Origin: an uncultured Clostridia bacterium
GTDB lineage: Bacteria; Bacillota; Clostridia; UBA1381
NCBI GenBank assembly: GCA_947585795.1
Contig: CANPXG010000008.1
Span: forward strand, 1-56,798
Direction of reading: 5' to 3'
Length of the DNA: 56,798 nt
How positions within the stretch are numbered: the first letter of the stretch is position 1; the number at the start of each line of letters is the position of its first letter. The notes beneath the pieces were generated by a model. It ran no database searches. It saw only the letters and a list, made by a program, of their open reading frames with translations, and was not told where the DNA came from. This document shows, one piece after another, positions 6,041 to 44,533 of this stretch. A program made the translations under genes and the position numbers.

Positions 6041-7702
6041 TTATTTATCTCTGCCGTATCGGGAATTTTCGCCTTTGGTGCCGTGTTGGGTGCGTTCGGT
6101 GCGGGACGCGTTCCTGTCGGGAGTGCGCGTGCCCGTTTCGTTGTCGGGGTAGTTCTGATTGCGCTGACGCTTAAGCTGCTGTATCCGTCTGCGGCGCTCA
6201 AGCTTCTTCTTGCGGTGACGCGCGTAGAGCATCACGATGATCAGAATTATCACCGGTATGAAGAAGAACGGACTTGTCACGACCTTTAAAATTATGTGGA
6301 AAACGTGAAGCAAATTGTTCCTCTCAACGTCGTTCGTCGCGACGAGGTTCGCCGCGCCGACCGGCACGTCGTTATAATAATAAGTCACGGTGCCCACCGT
6401 GTCGCCCTTGGCTATCGGCGCGCTTATTTGCTCCGGCATGTCGTATACAGGCTTTATAAGATCAGCGCTGCCCGTCTTGTTCGATATGAGCGCGGACACG
6501 TCCGCGTCAACGGTCAGGGCGACGCGCATGTCGTCCTTCGCCTCGTATACCTTGGAGTCGTTTATTATGTCGCCCACGGTCGCGAGCGATTGGTGCATGT
6601 AGTTGTTGAAACCGAAGTCAAACAGCTCGCGGGAGTCCGTGTACGAGTACGCGCCCGCCTGCTCGTCCGTGTTTGGACAGTTCATAACTATCGCAAGAAG
6701 CTCCGTGTCGTTATACGATGCCGCGGACACGAGGCAGTTGCCCGCCTGTGAGGTGTGTCCCGTCTTTATGCCTATCGCGGGCGGGTATAAATGGTAGGTC
6801 GAGCGAATCGTCGATAGGAACAGGTTCGTGTTTACCAGTGTGCGCTCCTGCGTGTACTTCGCCGTCGGCGGTATTTTGTATATTACGGTCTTTACCAATT
6901 CGCGGAAGGTGTCGTTTTTCATCGCGTATTTCGAGAGAATGGCGATGTCGCGCGTGGTCGTGTAGTGGTTGTCGTCGTGCGCGCCGCACGGATTCGCGAA
7001 GTGAGTGCCGGTCATGCCCAGTTCCTGCGCCTTTTGGTTCATCATCTCAACGAACGCGTCCATAGAGCCGGCTATGTGAACGGCGATAACGTTCGCCGCG
7101 TCGTTCGCGCTTTGTACCATCATCGCGTAGACAAGCTGTTCAAAGGTAAGCTCCTCGCCGAGCAGTATGCCGATGGCGCTGTCATCGAGAGTGATCGGCT
7201 TTAATGCCTCGTAGGTCGCGGTGACGGTGTCGGTCATGTTGCCGTTCTCGAGCGCGAGAACGCATGTCATGATTTTTGTGATACTCGCGGGGTATACGCG
7301 GTCGTCCAAATTTTTACTGTAGAGTACGCGTCCGGAGTCAAGGTCCATAAGCAGCGCCGACTGCGCGTGTGAAACGGAGGGCGGCGTGAGCGTGGGATCC
7401 TCCATTGTGATCCCCGCCGCGAGCTGCGGCGCGGGAGATGTGTCTTCGCTCGTTTCGTCGTCCGCGTCGTTTGACGTGTCGGCGGTTTCGTCCGTGCCGT
7501 CCTCGTCCTCGTCGGGCGTGGGCTCGGGCGTGGGTGTGACGGTTTCACCGTCGGAGTTGACGGTTTTCGTGGTGCCGTCGGGTGAGGTGACCGTTGATGT
7601 GGACGTGTCGGGCGTGGGCGTGGGAGCCGCGAACGCGTGCGCAAGCGGCGAAAGCGCGGTGAAAGCCGCGATCATAAGCGAAATAATCCTCTTTTTGTTC
7701 AT
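6041..7702 (-). CDS. D-alanyl-D-alanine carboxypeptidase (penicillin-binding protein 5/DacF type) with long N-terminal linker
   Basis: This is a serine peptidase (family S11) that trims the terminal D-Ala from peptidoglycan stem peptides on the outer face of the membrane. Residues 1-25 are a signal peptide ending AHAFA. Residues ~26-105 are a Thr/Pro/Asp/Glu-rich linker, unusual at this position. The catalytic domain has S140-I-T-K143 (nucleophile motif), S198-A-N200 and K313-T-G315. Near the C terminus one hydrophobic helix (SPFFFIPVIILIIVM) precedes a strongly basic tail, giving a membrane anchor instead of the usual amphipathic helix. The ATG at 7702 has GGAGG upstream. dacF-like sporulation roles are possible but not shown. 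It is transcribed alone. Confidence 0.92.
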   Translation of the reverse strand: MNKKRIISLMIAAFTALSPLAHAFAAPTPTPDTSTSTVTSPDGTTKTVNSDGETVTPTPEPTPDEDEDGTDETADTSNDADDETSEDTSPAPQLAAGITMEDPTLTPPSVSHAQSALLMDLDSGRVLYSKNLDDRVYPASITKIMTCVLALENGNMTDTVTATYEALKPITLDDSAIGILLGEELTFEQLVYAMMVQSANDAANVIAVHIAGSMDAFVEMMNQKAQELGMTGTHFANPCGAHDDNHYTTTRDIAILSKYAMKNDTFRELVKTVIYKIPPTAKYTQERTLVNTNLFLSTIRSTYHLYPPAIGIKTGHTSQAGNCLVSAASYNDTELLAIVMNCPNTDEQAGAYSYTDSRELFDFGFNNYMHQSLATVGDIINDSKVYEAKDDMRVALTVDADVSALISNKTGSADLIKPVYDMPEQISAPIAKGDTVGTVTYYYNDVPVGAANLVATNDVERNNLLHVFHIILKVVTSPFFFIPVIILIIVMLYARHRKKKLERRRRIQQLKRQRNQNYPDNETGTRTPDRNASRTERTQHGTKGENSRYGRDK

Positions 7703-7755
7703 TATAAACGTTGCCTCCGTATGTTTTTTCTTTTCATAATATTTCTCATTATACT

Positions 7756-7784
7756 ATTATACAGAAAGAATAATTACAATTCAA
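7756..7784 (-). promoter_or_regulatory. Sigma-A-type promoter for the D,D-carboxypeptidase
   Basis: Read on the minus strand: TTGAAT, 17-bp spacer, TATAAT, about 55 nt before the start codon at 7702. Confidence 0.7.
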
Positions 7785-7868
7785 TGAATTTTTTTTTAAA
7801 TTTGTAAAAAAATGCGGAAATGTGGTGAGGGAAAATTGGGGGTGGGGCAGGCTTCGTATTATTTTTAC

Positions 7869-7896
7869 TTGCAAAAACGGAAAAATATGGTATACT
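7869..7896 (+). promoter_or_regulatory. Probable promoter for the ComEA-like gene and the downstream operon
   Basis: TTGCAA, 16-bp spacer, TATACT, ending 40 nt before the ATG at 7937. It could also drive the response regulator and kinase genes, since only 29 bp separate them from the ComEA-like gene. Confidence 0.6.
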
Positions 7897-7936
7897 ATAG
7901 ATAAGATATGACTAAACGAAAAGGTGAGGTAGGGAT

Positions 7937-8302
7937 ATGGTTACGTTAAAGAAGAAGGCGAAGATAATAATCGCGGCGGCTTTGTTCGTGGGAGTCGCGG
8001 CGGCGGGATATTTGATAGAAAAATTTGAGAAGGATGCGTTTGTCGTGGAAACGGTCGCGCAGGATGACGCGGTTTCGTACGTGTCCGAGGGGAACGCCGA
8101 GGAGGAAGGCAAGATAAATATAAATGCGGCGGGCGTTACGGAGCTCGTAAAGCTTGACGGAATAGGTGAGGCGCTTTCGGAGCGTATAATAAATTACAGA
8201 GAGGAAAACGGTCCGTTCGTTACGGTTGAGGAAATAATGAAGGTGCCGGGCATAAGCGAAAGTAAGTTTGAAGCGATAAAGGATCATATTTGCGCCAAGT
8301 GA
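7937..8302 (+). CDS. ComEA-like membrane-anchored helix-hairpin-helix protein
   Basis: A 121-residue protein with one N-terminal membrane segment (IIIAAALFVGVAAAGYLI) after a basic start, a short acidic linker, and a C-terminal double helix-hairpin-helix. That domain holds INAAGVTELVKLDGIGEAL and VEEIMKVPGISESKFEAI. The arrangement matches ComEA, the surface dsDNA receptor of competence, but it lacks the SLBB domain of classical ComEA and no comEC/comF lies nearby. I therefore call it ComEA-like: surface DNA binding is inferred and a competence role is unproven. The start ATG follows AGGTAGGG. Confidence 0.8.
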   Translation: MVTLKKKAKIIIAAALFVGVAAAGYLIEKFEKDAFVVETVAQDDAVSYVSEGNAEEEGKININAAGVTELVKLDGIGEALSERIINYREENGPFVTVEEIMKVPGISESKFEAIKDHICAK

Positions 8303-37846: not shown

Positions 37847-40800
37847 TTAATTTACGGTTTTCGTGTCGATAGGCTGACCGTTATTCAGGTTCCAAAGGAA
37901 TGCGCGCATATTCGATGTTTTTTCGGTATCGGCGAACGCGTTGACCTTTAATAGCGACTCGCCGCCACCCTGCTGTATGTTCTTTCTGTCCAGTTTTACC
38001 GATTTGAGCGCGCCGTTTTCGTAGGAGGCGACGATAAGCGCCATGTTTGCCGAATGTATTGTGCCATTTTTGACAGCTGCGCTTACGGAACCGTCGGTGT
38101 TGACCGTGACGGAGCCTTCGGGCTCTGTGGGAATGTCCGACGGGTCGAACGTCTGCGGCGTGACAAGACTTTCACCCTTTTCCTCAGCTCGTTTTTCTTC
38201 GTTTTCAAGTGCGGTGAGTTCGGCAAATCTCGCTTCAACAACGATGTCTTTATCTTCGATATCACTGTAATTTACCGTGATTTTATTATCCGTAGGTGTA
38301 ACGGCTTTGCTGCCCACCATGACAGATTCAACGCCGTAGCCATCGGACGGCGTTACCGTAAGCGTTACGCTTTCGCCCTCTTTGAGGCTTATAAATTCAC
38401 TGTCCGTGTCGGAGGTGACAGAGCCGCCGTAGCTCGATGATACGAGTACTTGCTTTGTGTCCTCCACAGCCGCGCCCTCGTCAAGCTCGACCGCCGCTAC
38501 CGCGAACGGACTGAACGAGTTGCATAGTATAACAAGACCGTAACGCGTGATCTCGCACGGTATCTCTTCCACTTCGATCGTATTTCCTTGAGAGTCCTTT
38601 TTGAAGTGGTAAGCCTTGAAGGTCACGCCCTCGTCGTCGGGACCGTAGGGGTAGGGGAAGCCCATGCTTATTCGCACGGACTGACCTGTTTCGACGACTT
38701 GACATTTGCAAAGTGTCAGCGCGATGTTGTAGGTGCTGCTGCTTAAAACCTTGTCAACGTTCGTTTCGGGACTTTCTTCTATGAGGTCGTTCATCGTCTT
38801 GTCCTGCGACGCGTCCGTTTCCGACACGACGAGCGTCATTCTGTGCGTAAGGTCGCCGTCAACGCTGTTACCTTGAGCGTCCTTCCAGCCGTTTGTCGAA
38901 AGGTCGCTGTTTTCCATAAGCTGCGGCTTCGCGAACACGTTCCAAAAATATCCGCGCGAACGGTACGCGCATACGGCGCAGCCGTGCGCCGCGTGGTACA
39001 CTATCTCGTTCGGTGTTTTTTGACTTATTTTACCCTTTAAGGAGTTGAGAGTGATTTTATATATAATACAGTCGCCCGCCCACAATTCCTCGGGACGGAA
39101 GTCAAACCGTACCGTGCGGTCGCCGTCGAACACGGCGTTTTGTACCACAATGTCTTTCCTGACGTTGCCGAGCGCGTCATTACGGGCGAAGTCCACAAGC
39201 TCGACGGTAAAGTCCTCGCCGTACTTAAGCGGCATTTCCGTGCCCGCAGCGCTTGCTTCACCGGCCGGTACAAGCGGCTGATCGTACACGACCTCGCACT
39301 TATACGTGCTGCCGACGGAAAGTCTGCCCGTCTGAGATGGCGTGGCTTTTTTAATATACGGCGGAGCCATATACGTACCCTCGGGGTTGTGCAAAAGTCC
39401 CGTCTGACCTTCAAGTAAGAGTGGATCGCCCTTGTAGTACTGATATTCAAATTCTTTTCCCGTATAATCTTCCTTGCTCGGCGGATCGGGTATCTGCGGA
39501 GTTTCGGGGATCTTCTGACCGTCGTACCAGTGACCTATCGGCGGTATGTCCGTAACGGCAAATTCCGCGTATGTAAGGTGCCACGCGGGGAAGAGAGTGT
39601 AATTTTCGGTTTCAAACTCAACTCCCTGCCCGTCGAAAAGACCTGTGTCGGCGTAAACCCAATCCTTAAAGCCCGCCGTGCTGCCGTCCTCGGTACTTGT
39701 TCCGTAAAGCTTTACGAGAATGTACATACCATCCTCTTTCGCTGCTCTTTCATATCCCTTGCCGTTGTAGCTTACCTTGTAAGCGGGCATGGGCCCCGCG
39801 TTCGGATCGGTGGAGGCGTTTTTGGAATATTCCACCTCAAGACCGTTCAGCGAATATACCGTGTCGTACCTCGTGCCGCTTATTTCGAGCGCGGGGTACG
39901 TAAACTCAAACCCGCACTCCGACATTTCGCCGCTTGGCACGTGCTGGCGGTCCATCTCGTCCGCGCCGACCATAAGGTACTCGCTGCTCTCCCGACCGCT
40001 TGTGACGTTATTGTTATTTTTCACGATAGGATCGTCAAATGTGGAATCCACCGCGTACCACTTATTGCCGTCACTTTCGTCGATCCTCACGTAATTCCAC
40101 ATATGAAGCTCCGGCGTGTCTTTCGTGTGCATGTAAACGCCCTGTACAAGCACGCATGGAACGCCGGCTCTGTCGAGAACCGTCTTTAACGCGCGTGAAT
40201 AGCCCTCGCAAAGACTTTCCCGCGCCACAAGCGCGCCGTACGCCGTCCTCACGTGACCGATATTTTCTTCTTTACACCTGTTCGGCTCGCTTTCGCTCGT
40301 CGTGTCAAGCTTGTAAATTGTGGCGCGTATAAGCGTGTCGTGAACGTAGGTGATGATTTTTTCCGCCTCCGTCTTTTCGCGCGCGCTCTCCTCGGTGCTG
40401 TTGTCGCTGCGAAGCTCGTCTATCGTGTACACCGTTTTATCGTCCGTGGCGGGGCTGCTTCCGCTTTCGGTATTGCCGTAATTTTCGTCAGATGCCGCGT
40501 CCTTGGCATCCTGTGCCATTTTGTCCGCCGCTTTGTTTAATTCTTTTTCCGCCGCCTCTACGCCCTCTTTTGACGTAAAGCCCTGCCTGTAATAGCTCGC
40601 GCTTCTGCCCGTGCCGAGAGTCGCGGTGTACGTGCCGTCCTGCTTTTTTCTCACGACGATACTGAGTTGGTCAAAATCAACGTAAAATACCTCGGGAAAA
40701 TCGGCACAGAACGCGTCGCGCGCCGCGCCGTATGTGTTTAAAAGAGTGTTGTCGCCGTGGGCGTAAGCGTCAAGCTGTTCTTGCGTCACAACGCCGTTGT

Positions 40801-41065
40801 CGGTAAGACTGTACTCGCCGCTGCCCGTTTTAAACGTGCCGTTTTCGTACATTTTTGCCATAGCGTTGTAAAACTTTTTCGCCTCTGTCGTAAGCTGGTC
40901 GTAAAAATAGATAAAGTGCTTCGCGCCGTTCGCGTCTGTTTCCCAGTGACCGCCCGTAACGTCGGGCGCGGACACCTCGAACGCCGCGTCCGATATAAAC
41001 GGCGCGCAAAGCATGGTAAGCGACAATATTGCCGCGATCGTTTTTTTAAATTTTCCTTTGCTCAT
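37847..41065 (-). CDS. Large secreted transglutaminase-like multidomain surface protein
   Basis: A 1072-residue exported protein. It starts MSKGKFKKTIAAILSLTMLC with a signal peptide ending near SDAA. I choose ATG 41065, directly preceded by GGGGAGGAC, over a frame extended to 41185. A transglutaminase-like domain (about residues 260-400) shows the triad: Cys in RESLCEGYSRAL, His in PELHMWNYVRI, Asp in WYAVDSTFDDP. A long region of beta-type segments follows. A bacterial-repeat (InlB B-like) unit begins SSSYGGSVTSDTDSE and contains VTPSDGYGVESVMV, and the C terminus carries RAFLWNLNNGQPI. There is no LPXTG or SLH anchor. Confidence 0.8.
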   Translation of the reverse strand: MSKGKFKKTIAAILSLTMLCAPFISDAAFEVSAPDVTGGHWETDANGAKHFIYFYDQLTTEAKKFYNAMAKMYENGTFKTGSGEYSLTDNGVVTQEQLDAYAHGDNTLLNTYGAARDAFCADFPEVFYVDFDQLSIVVRKKQDGTYTATLGTGRSASYYRQGFTSKEGVEAAEKELNKAADKMAQDAKDAASDENYGNTESGSSPATDDKTVYTIDELRSDNSTEESAREKTEAEKIITYVHDTLIRATIYKLDTTSESEPNRCKEENIGHVRTAYGALVARESLCEGYSRALKTVLDRAGVPCVLVQGVYMHTKDTPELHMWNYVRIDESDGNKWYAVDSTFDDPIVKNNNNVTSGRESSEYLMVGADEMDRQHVPSGEMSECGFEFTYPALEISGTRYDTVYSLNGLEVEYSKNASTDPNAGPMPAYKVSYNGKGYERAAKEDGMYILVKLYGTSTEDGSTAGFKDWVYADTGLFDGQGVEFETENYTLFPAWHLTYAEFAVTDIPPIGHWYDGQKIPETPQIPDPPSKEDYTGKEFEYQYYKGDPLLLEGQTGLLHNPEGTYMAPPYIKKATPSQTGRLSVGSTYKCEVVYDQPLVPAGEASAAGTEMPLKYGEDFTVELVDFARNDALGNVRKDIVVQNAVFDGDRTVRFDFRPEELWAGDCIIYKITLNSLKGKISQKTPNEIVYHAAHGCAVCAYRSRGYFWNVFAKPQLMENSDLSTNGWKDAQGNSVDGDLTHRMTLVVSETDASQDKTMNDLIEESPETNVDKVLSSSTYNIALTLCKCQVVETGQSVRISMGFPYPYGPDDEGVTFKAYHFKKDSQGNTIEVEEIPCEITRYGLVILCNSFSPFAVAAVELDEGAAVEDTKQVLVSSSYGGSVTSDTDSEFISLKEGESVTLTVTPSDGYGVESVMVGSKAVTPTDNKITVNYSDIEDKDIVVEARFAELTALENEEKRAEEKGESLVTPQTFDPSDIPTEPEGSVTVNTDGSVSAAVKNGTIHSANMALIVASYENGALKSVKLDRKNIQQGGGESLLKVNAFADTEKTSNMRAFLWNLNNGQPIDTKTVN

Positions 41066-41115
41066 AAAATGTCCTCCCCAATTATGCTTTAGCGGATAAT
41101 ACGCTCCGCCCCTGA

Positions 41116-41145
41116 ATTTTATCATGCGGACAAATTCCGCGTCAA
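41116..41145 (-). promoter_or_regulatory. Promoter for the transglutaminase-like surface protein
   Basis: Minus strand: TTGACG, 18-bp spacer, TAAAAT, about 50 nt before ATG 41065. Confidence 0.6.
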
Positions 41146-41216
41146 TACGATATATAAAATTTAAAAATTGTGTAATAAATGTCACATTTAAGCGTGCACT
41201 TTAGCCAACCGGTGTA

Positions 41217-41245
41217 TTGACAACCGTATGTAGTTATGATAAACT
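41217..41245 (+). promoter_or_regulatory. Promoter for the condensation-carrier-adenylation cassette
   Basis: TTGACA, 17-bp spacer, TAAACT, 50 nt before the ATG at 41296. Confidence 0.6.
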
Positions 41246-41295: not shown

Positions 41296-42705
41296 ATGGA
41301 GAAAGTAATAGGAGGCATTAAACGCGACTGCTACCCCATTACCGAGGCGGAGCTTTTGCATTTGTACACGATGTCGTTCAGTCCGACGCAGGAGATCGTA
41401 AACCTCGGTACGGGGCGTTACCTGCAGATGGATATAAATATGTCGCTTCTGCGTGAGGCGCTGAACCGCGCGGTGTCGCGCTGTGAAACTATGCGCCTCA
41501 GGTTTTGGAAGGAGCCTGAAACGGGACAGATTTGGCAGTACGTTATGCCGTACGAAAACCAACACTTCGAGTACTACGATTTCTCGGATATAAGCGAGGA
41601 AAAGGCGCACGCAATTCTCGACGGGTGGACGAGTCAGCCGTTCGACACGTTCGGCGGCCCGCTTTCGCGTATCGTGCTCGTGTCGATGCCCGACGGCTAC
41701 AACGGCTATTACATGAACGTGCATCACGCGACGATGGATGCAGCGTCGATCATCACGTTTAACCGTGACGTTATGGATATATACTGCAGCCTTATGTACG
41801 ACCTTCCTTACCCCAAGCCGATGACGTCATATATAGAGGCGGTAAAGAAGGATATGGAGTACCTTGCCGGCTGTAAAAAGAAGGAAGCCGACGACAAGTA
41901 CTGGGCGGAGCAGCTTGCGCGTCCCGAGCCTATATACACCGACTTTACGGGACCCGGACGCTTGCAGACGCAGCGGCGTGAAAACAACAACCCCAACCAG
42001 CGCGCGGGACTTCTTCTCTCGCGTGACGCGGCGGGCAGCACCGTTACGTATGCTCTCGACGTTGACTCGACGAAAAAGCTCGTTGACTTCTGTGAGGAAC
42101 ACGGCTACCCCGTAAGCGTTCTGTTGCTGCACGGTCTGCGCACCGTTTTGTCGAAGTTTAACAACAACGAAAAGGATATATGTATAAAGGACTTCGTCGC
42201 AAGACGTTCAACGGTGCTTGCCAAAAAGTGCGGCGGCGTGAGAATGCACTGCATGACGCTTCGCACGATCGTCGAGCCGGACAACACCGTTCTCGAGTCG
42301 CTTGACATTATAGACAAGGCGCAGAACGATTTGTTCAAGCACTCCGAGTACGGTCCGATGACGTTCTACAAAAATCAGCGTGAAACGTACGGTTACGCGC
42401 CGCGCGGCGGTTATGAGAGCGTCGGCTTCACGTACCAGCCGGCGACGCTCAAGAGCATTGCGCCGTACCTTAAGGGCATACCGTACAAGAATTTTTGGTA
42501 TTCAAGCGGTAAGCAGCCGCAGGCGTTCTATCTCACGGCTATGCACCGCCCCAACGACGGCGGTCTGAATTTCCATTTCGGTTATCAGAGCGATGTGGCT
42601 ACGCCGCAGGAGATCGAGTTCCTGTACTACTACCTCGGACGCGTGCTGTTTAGAAGTATCGAAAATCCGAACGCGACGGTTCAGGAAATTATGGATATGG
42701 TTTAA
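41296..42705 (+). CDS. Free-standing NRPS-like condensation-domain protein
   Basis: A 469-residue protein with the two-lobed condensation/acyltransferase fold. The active-site HHxxxD is H143-H144-A-T-M-D148, with YYMNVHHATMDAASI around it. Other condensation-type features are the N-terminal YPITEAELLHLYTM segment and a C-terminal sheet region. In NRPS pathways this domain joins an acyl or aminoacyl group on one carrier to an amine or alcohol. Here it is a single protein, not part of a megasynthase. The ATG follows AGGAGGAAT. A carrier protein gene begins 22 bp later. Confidence 0.88.
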   Translation: MEKVIGGIKRDCYPITEAELLHLYTMSFSPTQEIVNLGTGRYLQMDINMSLLREALNRAVSRCETMRLRFWKEPETGQIWQYVMPYENQHFEYYDFSDISEEKAHAILDGWTSQPFDTFGGPLSRIVLVSMPDGYNGYYMNVHHATMDAASIITFNRDVMDIYCSLMYDLPYPKPMTSYIEAVKKDMEYLAGCKKKEADDKYWAEQLARPEPIYTDFTGPGRLQTQRRENNNPNQRAGLLLSRDAAGSTVTYALDVDSTKKLVDFCEEHGYPVSVLLLHGLRTVLSKFNNNEKDICIKDFVARRSTVLAKKCGGVRMHCMTLRTIVEPDNTVLESLDIIDKAQNDLFKHSEYGPMTFYKNQRETYGYAPRGGYESVGFTYQPATLKSIAPYLKGIPYKNFWYSSGKQPQAFYLTAMHRPNDGGLNFHFGYQSDVATPQEIEFLYYYLGRVLFRSIENPNATVQEIMDMV

Positions 42706-42727
42706 TTATGTAAGGGAGGATATAAAA

Positions 42728-42952
42728 ATGCTGGAACAGTTAAAAGAGCTTATAATGAATTACGTCGAGGTCGACGAAAGCGAGATCGTGCCGGAGGCGC
42801 GTTTTTCGGAGGATTTGGGATTTAACTCGTACGATTTTATGTGCATGCTCGGCGACATCGAGGACGAAATGGATATAGAAATAGACGAGGATAAGGCGGC
42901 GGCAAGCAAAACCGTCGAGGAATTGATGAATTATTTGGAGGAACAGAAGTAG
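42728..42952 (+). CDS. Acyl/peptidyl carrier protein
   Basis: A 74-residue acidic carrier protein. The phosphopantetheine attachment Ser is S34 in EDLGFNSYDFM (the usual DSL is NSY here). It also has the helix II/III pattern IEDEMDIEIDE. It stands between a condensation domain and an adenylating enzyme, so it presumably carries the activated acyl or amino acid between them. The start is ATG 42728 behind GGGAGG. It differs from housekeeping AcpP by the NSY motif and by its context. Confidence 0.92.
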   Translation: MLEQLKELIMNYVEVDESEIVPEARFSEDLGFNSYDFMCMLGDIEDEMDIEIDEDKAAASKTVEELMNYLEEQK

Positions 42953-42968
42953 AAAAGAGAGGTATACC

Positions 42969-44489
42969 ATGTTTTCACGCGACAACATAAAAAATATGCG
43001 CGATCTTGCGTACACGGCGGCGGAGCGTTTTGGTGATGAAACGTTTATCCGTACCCGCGACAAGAAAGAGTTTACGGACAGGACCTTTAACGAGTTTAAG
43101 CGCGACGCGGACGCTGTCGGAGCGTGGCTTGAGGAAACGTTTCCAAGCAAGGTCCACGCCGCGCTTTTCGGCGCGACAAGCTATGAGTTCGTCGTGTCGT
43201 GGTTCGGCGTTACGACGAGCGCGAACGTTGCCGTGCCGCTTAACGTGTCGAACGACGCGGCGGCTCTCGCGGACGAGATAAATCGCTCCGACAGCGAAAT
43301 TATATTTCTTGACGAGCGCCGCGAGGACTGTATTGACGAATTAAAAAAGCTTTGTCCCAAGGTCAAGTGCTTCGTTCATATGAGTGGCGAGCATGAGGGT
43401 ACGGTTTCATTAAAGTCCATAACCCAAAAGTACGGCGGTAAAGCGCCCAAGCGCGAAATAGACGCAAACTCCGTGGCGGCAATCATATTCACGTCCGGCA
43501 CGACAGGTCAGAGCAAGGGCGTAATGCTTACCCACGCGAATTTTGCCGACAACGCGACGTGTGAGCCTGATCTCGGCTACCACGGCGACAAGCGTCTTAC
43601 GCTTCTGCCGATACATCATATTTTCTGCTTCACCTGCGACATACTTTGCACGCTTTGGTACGGAAGGCTTTTATGTATAAACGATTCTCTTATGCGTATT
43701 CCGAAAAACCTTAAAGCGTACAAGCCGGTACAGACGACGTTTGTGCCGATGATCGCCGCGTCGATACTTAACAAAATGCGTCAGGAGGCGAAGAAAAATC
43801 CCGACAAGATCGCCGTCGGCAGGGAAATGTTTGGCGACGAGTTCAGCATACTTTACGCGGGCGGAGCGTATTTAAGCCCCGAGATAATAAAGGGATATAA
43901 GGAGTTCGGTATAGAAATAGCGCAGGGTTACGGTATGACCGAAACGACCTCGCGCATAAGCACCGGCGTTAAAAACTGTCCGTACCCCGAGTCGGTCGGC
44001 AGGATAATTCCCGGCTGTGAGGTAAAGATAGTGGACGGTGAGATATGGGCAAAGGGACCGTCCATCATGAAGGGATATTACAAAAACCCCGAGGAAACCG
44101 CGAAGGCGCTTACCGAGGACGGCTGGCTCATGACGGGCGACTTGGGTTACGTAAAGGATAATTACGTGTTCATAGTGGGACGCAAGAAAAACCTTATCAT
44201 ACTCGACAACGGTGAGAACGTGTCACCGGAGGAGCTTGAAAACAAGTTCGCGATGTGCGAGCCGGTGAAGGAGATCGTAGTGTACGATAAGGATAAGGTG
44301 ATCACGGCTGAAATTTACCCCAATCCCGACTACGAGTTTACCGACGTTCGCGCGGAAATTCAAGCGGAGATAGACAAGGTGAATGGCACCCTTCCCGCGC
44401 CGAAGCAAATACACGGCTTGGTTTTGAGGGACACAGAATTTGATAAAACAGCCTCGAAAAAAATAAAAAGAAACTCAATCACAAAATAA
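42969..44489 (+). CDS. AMP-forming acyl/amino-acid ligase (adenylation enzyme)
   Basis: A 506-residue ANL-superfamily enzyme. The P-loop core IIFTSGTTGQSKGVMLTH lies at about 172-189. It continues with AQGYGMTETTSRIS, ELWMTGDLGY-type LMTGDLGYV, VGRKKNLIILDNGENVSPEE, and a C-terminal catalytic Lys region DKTASKKIKR. It activates a carboxylate as the adenylate and loads it onto the carrier upstream. The substrate is unknown; sequence style is closer to long-chain acyl ligases than to standard amino-acid A domains. It ends the three-gene cassette, which has no thioesterase, phosphopantetheinyl transferase or exporter nearby. Confidence 0.92.
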   Translation: MFSRDNIKNMRDLAYTAAERFGDETFIRTRDKKEFTDRTFNEFKRDADAVGAWLEETFPSKVHAALFGATSYEFVVSWFGVTTSANVAVPLNVSNDAAALADEINRSDSEIIFLDERREDCIDELKKLCPKVKCFVHMSGEHEGTVSLKSITQKYGGKAPKREIDANSVAAIIFTSGTTGQSKGVMLTHANFADNATCEPDLGYHGDKRLTLLPIHHIFCFTCDILCTLWYGRLLCINDSLMRIPKNLKAYKPVQTTFVPMIAASILNKMRQEAKKNPDKIAVGREMFGDEFSILYAGGAYLSPEIIKGYKEFGIEIAQGYGMTETTSRISTGVKNCPYPESVGRIIPGCEVKIVDGEIWAKGPSIMKGYYKNPEETAKALTEDGWLMTGDLGYVKDNYVFIVGRKKNLIILDNGENVSPEELENKFAMCEPVKEIVVYDKDKVITAEIYPNPDYEFTDVRAEIQAEIDKVNGTLPAPKQIHGLVLRDTEFDKTASKKIKRNSITK

Positions 44490-44492
44490 AAA

Positions 44493-44533
44493 ACAGGGGA
44501 CACTAAATTTAGTGTCCCCCTGTGCATTTTTTA
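44493..44533 (+). terminator. Terminator after the condensation-carrier-adenylation cassette
   Basis: GGGGACACTAAA / TTTAGTGTCCCC perfect arms, extended by CAG/CTG, and followed by GCATTTTTT. Confidence 0.85.

Follow-up and report, generated by a model that had tools for sequence, protein, structure and literature searches.

A stand-alone condensation protein, carrier protein and acyl ligase in an uncultured Clostridia bacterium: a probable fatty acid amide cassette in an apparently recombinant operon

What can be made by three small proteins of nonribosomal peptide synthetase (NRPS) type that are encoded together with few obvious partners? The question is raised by a locus in the window, a stretch of 56,798 nucleotides from an uncultured Clostridia bacterium (contig CANPXG010000008.1). 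Three genes on the forward strand encode a stand-alone condensation protein (C; 41296..42705, 469 amino acids, PF00668 at 126 bits), an acyl carrier protein (T; 42728..42952, 74 amino acids, PF00550 at 38 bits) and a stand-alone adenylating acyl ligase (A; 42969..44489, 506 amino acids, PF00501 at 199 bits). The gaps are 22 bp between C and T and 16 bp between T and A, and the tightly spaced trio of the original prediction is borne out. That prediction also proposed one promoter and one terminator, and candidates for both are present. A ribosome-binding-site-like AGGAGG precedes C, and upstream of C on the same strand lies a promoter-like site (41217..41245; TTGACA-17-TAAACT, with TG before the second hexamer) that is a consensus match only, such sites numbering 7 against a mean of 4.0 in shuffled sequences. 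The operon is closed by a strong palindrome (44495..44520), which the terminator scan scored on the reverse strand only, so it probably also serves the convergent leuA. This palindrome reads GGGGACACTAAATTTAGTGTCCCC (window 44496-44519); its 22-base core occurs at six places in the assembly with no mismatches, and the terminator is thus a dispersed repeat. Divergent from the operon, positions 37847-41185 of the reverse strand encode a large protein, probably secreted, part of which looks transglutaminase-like by eye; among the related contig loci described below, this protein is common only to the window, L011 and L012.

As predicted, no phosphopantetheinyl transferase (PPTase), thioesterase or reductase adjoins the trio. 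The single PPTase (PF01648) match in the assembly is on another contig (G000:C9:12904-13113), in a 214-codon open frame that is Sfp-like by length. The source assembly is 86.5% complete, so absences from it are provisional.

Although the original prediction recognized no described product, products are known for cassettes of the same kind. The OAA cassette of Coprococcus eutactus, with OaaA, OaaACP and OaaC, makes oleoyl aminovaleric acid (Chang et al. 2021, via PMC13142362 and PMC13060934), and PMC13142362 reports that OaaC, OaaA and OaaACP, when reconstituted, yielded fatty acid amides (FAAs) in vitro. The same paper treats A, ACP and C of FAA cassettes as separate proteins and places the C domains in one clade, marked by a (D/H)HxxxDS-type motif in which the residue after the Asp is Ser in 42% and Ala in 36%. 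In the CTA operon the carrier lies between C and A in all identified isolates, and the operon has been linked in Blautia to both N-acyl ethanolamines and acyl dopamines, and in Coprococcus catus to acyl ethanolamines; at the survey threshold of 70% identity, it was found only in Lachnospiraceae isolates (PMC13060934). The window trio is very likely an FAA ("CTA") cassette of this kind, with its reaction, acyl donor and free-amine acceptor read across from these characterized relatives. It comprises three free-standing proteins in one operon with T between C and A, and its C is clearly related to OaaC, whose own cassette is likewise ordered C-T-A. This reading agrees with the conjugate joined by a single bond, for example an acylated amine, that had been predicted from the sequence alone.

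The catalytic motif of C is HHATMDA, which fits (D/H)HxxxD followed by Ser, Ala or Gly and agrees with the predicted intact HHxxxD. A defunct active site in close relatives, a possibility raised at the outset, was not found, the second His and the Asp being kept in every genome-contig locus that covers the motif. In a sequence search against solved structures, C matched PDB entry 12KH with an E value of 2.2e-96, followed by EntF at 3.5e-9; with a family profile of C the values were 9.7e-139 for 12KH and 2.2e-12 for the next best entry. The molecule name of 12KH is "Condensation Domain Protein," and we take the entry to be OaaC because of this name, the length and number (two) of its chains and the presence of DHxxxDS, the motif that PMC13142362 gives for OaaC. 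The two proteins are homologous over their full length, with 159 of 461 aligned columns identical (34%) and nine gap columns, but the window protein has HHxxxDA where OaaC has DHxxxDS.

The predicted structure of C (AlphaFold, mean pLDDT 89) has a condensation-domain fold, and its best structural neighbors are condensation domains. The closest is the starter C domain of RzmA solved with C8-CoA (PDB 7C1L; Z 36.8, rmsd 2.9, 422 residues aligned), tied with several others; the structural library ends at 8 April 2026 and lacks 12KH, so this comparison rests on other C domains. RzmA shares with the window protein the fold and, in our reading, a fatty acyl donor. It differs in lying inside a lipopeptide NRPS, in having been solved with acyl-CoA and in being only ~15% identical, whereas the window C stands alone and its donor is probably the neighboring carrier. 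From these relationships we infer that C is an acyl transferase acting from an acyl-carrier to a free amine.

A tree built by a quick method compared 49 stand-alone C proteins, one of them OaaC, with 10 C domains embedded in NRPSs. A branch with SH-aLRT support of 100 divided all of the stand-alone proteins from the embedded domains, the outgroup consisting of clostridial embedded domains without verified starter domains. The window protein belongs to a branch of 24 rows, of which all that cover the motif have HHxxxD(A/S), and OaaC lies in another branch of the same stand-alone clade. Some long branches meet in this tree, and fine placement is less sure. We know of no assayed member of the window's branch. 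The branch thus appears to be distinct and uncharacterized, given 34% identity to OaaC and the HHxxxDA motif, within a kind of cassette that is already known.

The separation of stand-alone from embedded C domains also bears on whether the three proteins are detached NRPS parts in the service of a bigger synthetase encoded at another site. All three are indeed NRPS-type domains, but the trio travels alone in many genomes, and the window's own genome, at 86.5% completeness, yielded no further condensation domain; we consider this explanation barely credible. A canonical modular NRPS, with C, A and PCP in multidomain proteins, does not describe a locus of three separate genes with no other condensation domain found.

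The ligase resembles acyl ligases, as predicted, and by sequence belongs to that family. It contains the motifs FTSGTTG, LPIHHIFCFTC, YGMTETT, TGDLG and TASKKIKR, the last like a catalytic-lysine motif. The nearest NCBIfam model is PRK06187, a long-chain-fatty-acid-CoA ligase (1.9e-60, below cut-off), with acyl- and aryl-CoA ligases near it, and an amino-acid-adenylation model was weaker (3.4e-31). In amino-acid-activating domains the substrate amine is usually held by an Asp. Where this Asp usually sits, the A family has LPIHHIFCFTC or near variants, which argues against an amino acid donor and does not fix the chain. The same three-protein chemistry could join an aromatic or other nonfatty carboxylic acid to an amine, since the best solved match of A is 4-coumarate-CoA ligase (2.9e-31), luciferases are also among the best, and the C model lies near C domains of other donor types too. 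Nevertheless, a long-chain fatty acyl ligase heads the NCBIfam models of A, and OaaC, which according to PMC13142362 accepts several acyl chains, is far above the other solved C domains, so a nonfatty donor is improbable.

Comparison with DltA bears on the alternative offered in the original prediction, acylation of a wall or teichoic polymer in the manner of dlt with C standing in for DltB. The trio does share with dlt a free-standing adenylating enzyme and a carrier, and the genome has two MBOAT genes. However, both of these are on other contigs, C has a condensation-domain rather than an MBOAT fold, and A is much closer to acyl- and aryl-CoA ligases than to DltA, the streptococcal-type DltA (3l8c) appearing far down the PDB list at 7.5e-17. 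Furthermore, no membrane acyltransferase recurs beside the trio in the window's branch in a flank comparison with partly annotated families. The arrangement of an actual dlt system, with the MBOAT protein DltB beside DltA and DltC, is not that of this locus, and the dlt-like alternative can practically be set aside.

An FAA cassette also requires a carrier that can be primed. The putative phosphopantetheine Ser lies in GFNSYD, in keeping with the predicted NSY, and all aligned carriers have FNSYD or FTSYD; the closest NCBIfam matches of the carrier are acyl carrier proteins, below cut-offs. The Sfp-like PPTase encoded elsewhere would place phosphopantetheine on this carrier, A would activate a fatty acid with ATP and load it, and C would pass the carrier-bound acyl group on to a small amine that diffuses freely. 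Amide formation on a free amine would itself release the product, so a thioesterase would not be needed. For a decarboxylase of the amine-making PF00282 family, the genome gave two weak matches, both below cut-off.

Gene content and order, the intact motifs and the relation to OaaC are observed directly, as is conservation of the trio across many Clostridia. In 34 of the 41 C-encoding loci found in genome contigs a carrier lies behind C, and in 7 of the 41 it does not. The end of the locus falls inside C in L011, L030, L035 and L040. Foreign-looking sequence follows C near the end of L023, C and A are joined with the carrier absent in L041 and L042 (by their look a deletion or misassembly), and L021, outside these seven, has a stop inside C; L021, L023, L041 and L042 look like decayed copies or assembly faults. 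In a further set of 20 regions around stand-alone C genes, one per genome, from searches of the genus and the class and in part overlapping the contig loci, C-T-A lies on one strand in all 20. The class-wide search gave a C match in 48 of 391 genomes, with stand-alone C proteins scoring at least 335 bits (split pieces apart) and domains mostly of large proteins at most 109 bits. C is present in 12 of 16 genomes of the window's genus and 28 of 70 genomes of its family, a patchy presence that, like the C-T-A order of three genes, recalls the CTA operon of Blautia wexlerae and other Lachnospiraceae (PMC13060934). Unlike the isolates that have that operon, the relatives of the window are mostly metagenome-assembled genomes (MAGs) classified as Clostridia, Oscillospiraceae or Ruminococcus, and the isolate names of many are those of a rabbit study (Lapin), the rumen or the deer gut. 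Plasmid records held only distant condensation domains, with identities of at most 24% among the ten matches listed.

The search for the trio and its neighbors in other genomes, suggested with the original prediction, recovered the trio itself, and flanking genes differ among most loci. No recurring protein family was seen beside the window's own branch in the flank comparison, in which families of open reading frames are partly annotated. The window shares its flanks substantially, at the DNA level, only with L011 and L012. In L002, L004, L005 and L006, but not in L003, an insert of ~300 to 400 bp lies between the carrier and A; that of L002, at about 7654-8065, has the look of a dispersed repeat.

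The two ends of the operon appear to have different histories. Between the window and L002, L003, L004 and L006, C is nearly identical, with a dN of 0.007-0.011 and a dS of 0.44-0.49, but A is not, with a dN of 0.16-0.18 and a dS of 1.3-1.5. In careful trees of 18 sequences, calculated separately for C and A, the window groups with L002, L003, L004 and L006 for C, and for A it lies outside that group, nearest to L012 and L013. Constraining the A tree to join the window with the L002 type was rejected (p-AU 8.8e-7), as was constraining the C tree to join it with L012 and L013 (p-AU 9.1e-8); the groups were picked after the identities were known, so these p-values are optimistic, and the log-likelihood gaps were 93 and 64. 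Site patterns of the window against L002-L006, L011 and L012 switch sharply at ~41.30 kb and become mixed from ~42.86 kb, within the carrier gene. The sequence comparisons thus indicate a natural recombinant, in which one lineage supplied A and another supplied C along with the bulk of the carrier. The simplest history would start from a resident operon of the L012 kind, whose flanks the window shares, with C and the greater part of the carrier then arriving from the L002 lineage; a swap of A in the opposite direction is also conceivable, though less simple.

Other branches have possible accessory genes. In two other branches, 19 loci carry an alpha/beta hydrolase gene immediately upstream of C (L031-L035, L037, L038, L040, L086-L094, L099 and L100), and PPTase-like (PF01648) genes lie near the trio in eight (L028, L033, L038, L086, L091, L092, L099 and L100), between the carrier and A in L086; one hydrolase and four PPTases were matched to Pfam and the rest assigned by similarity, and L038 and L099 have the same C sequence. 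Neither gene occurs at the window locus, and a search of the 86.5% complete genome, run without a positive control, found no alpha/beta hydrolase like those of the other branches. The recurring hydrolase might serve as an amidase or as an editing thioesterase; a text search of PMC13142362 gave no mention of a hydrolase. The uncharacterized branch, the natural recombinant and the possible accessory genes of other branches are what is new here.

FAAs of gut Clostridia act on host receptors, and acyl dopamines have been reported to activate GPR119 and release GLP-1 (PMC13060934). For the producing cell, removal of toxic fatty acids has been reported as a benefit in Blautia (PMC13060934), and the benefit of the window's cassette may be fatty acid detoxification, host signaling, or both. 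The locus widens the known cassette to an uncharacterized branch with members in many MAGs from gut and rumen, and its recombinant operon is a natural module swap that could be used to test how C and A each bear on the choice of amine and acyl chain. It is conceivable, although on balance we doubt it, that the window's HHxxxD(A/S) branch makes an FAA with an amine undescribed for gut bacteria and that different ligases are combined in nature with the pair of C and carrier, the recombinant operon of the window being one instance. If true, this would show where the product diversity of FAA producers originates.
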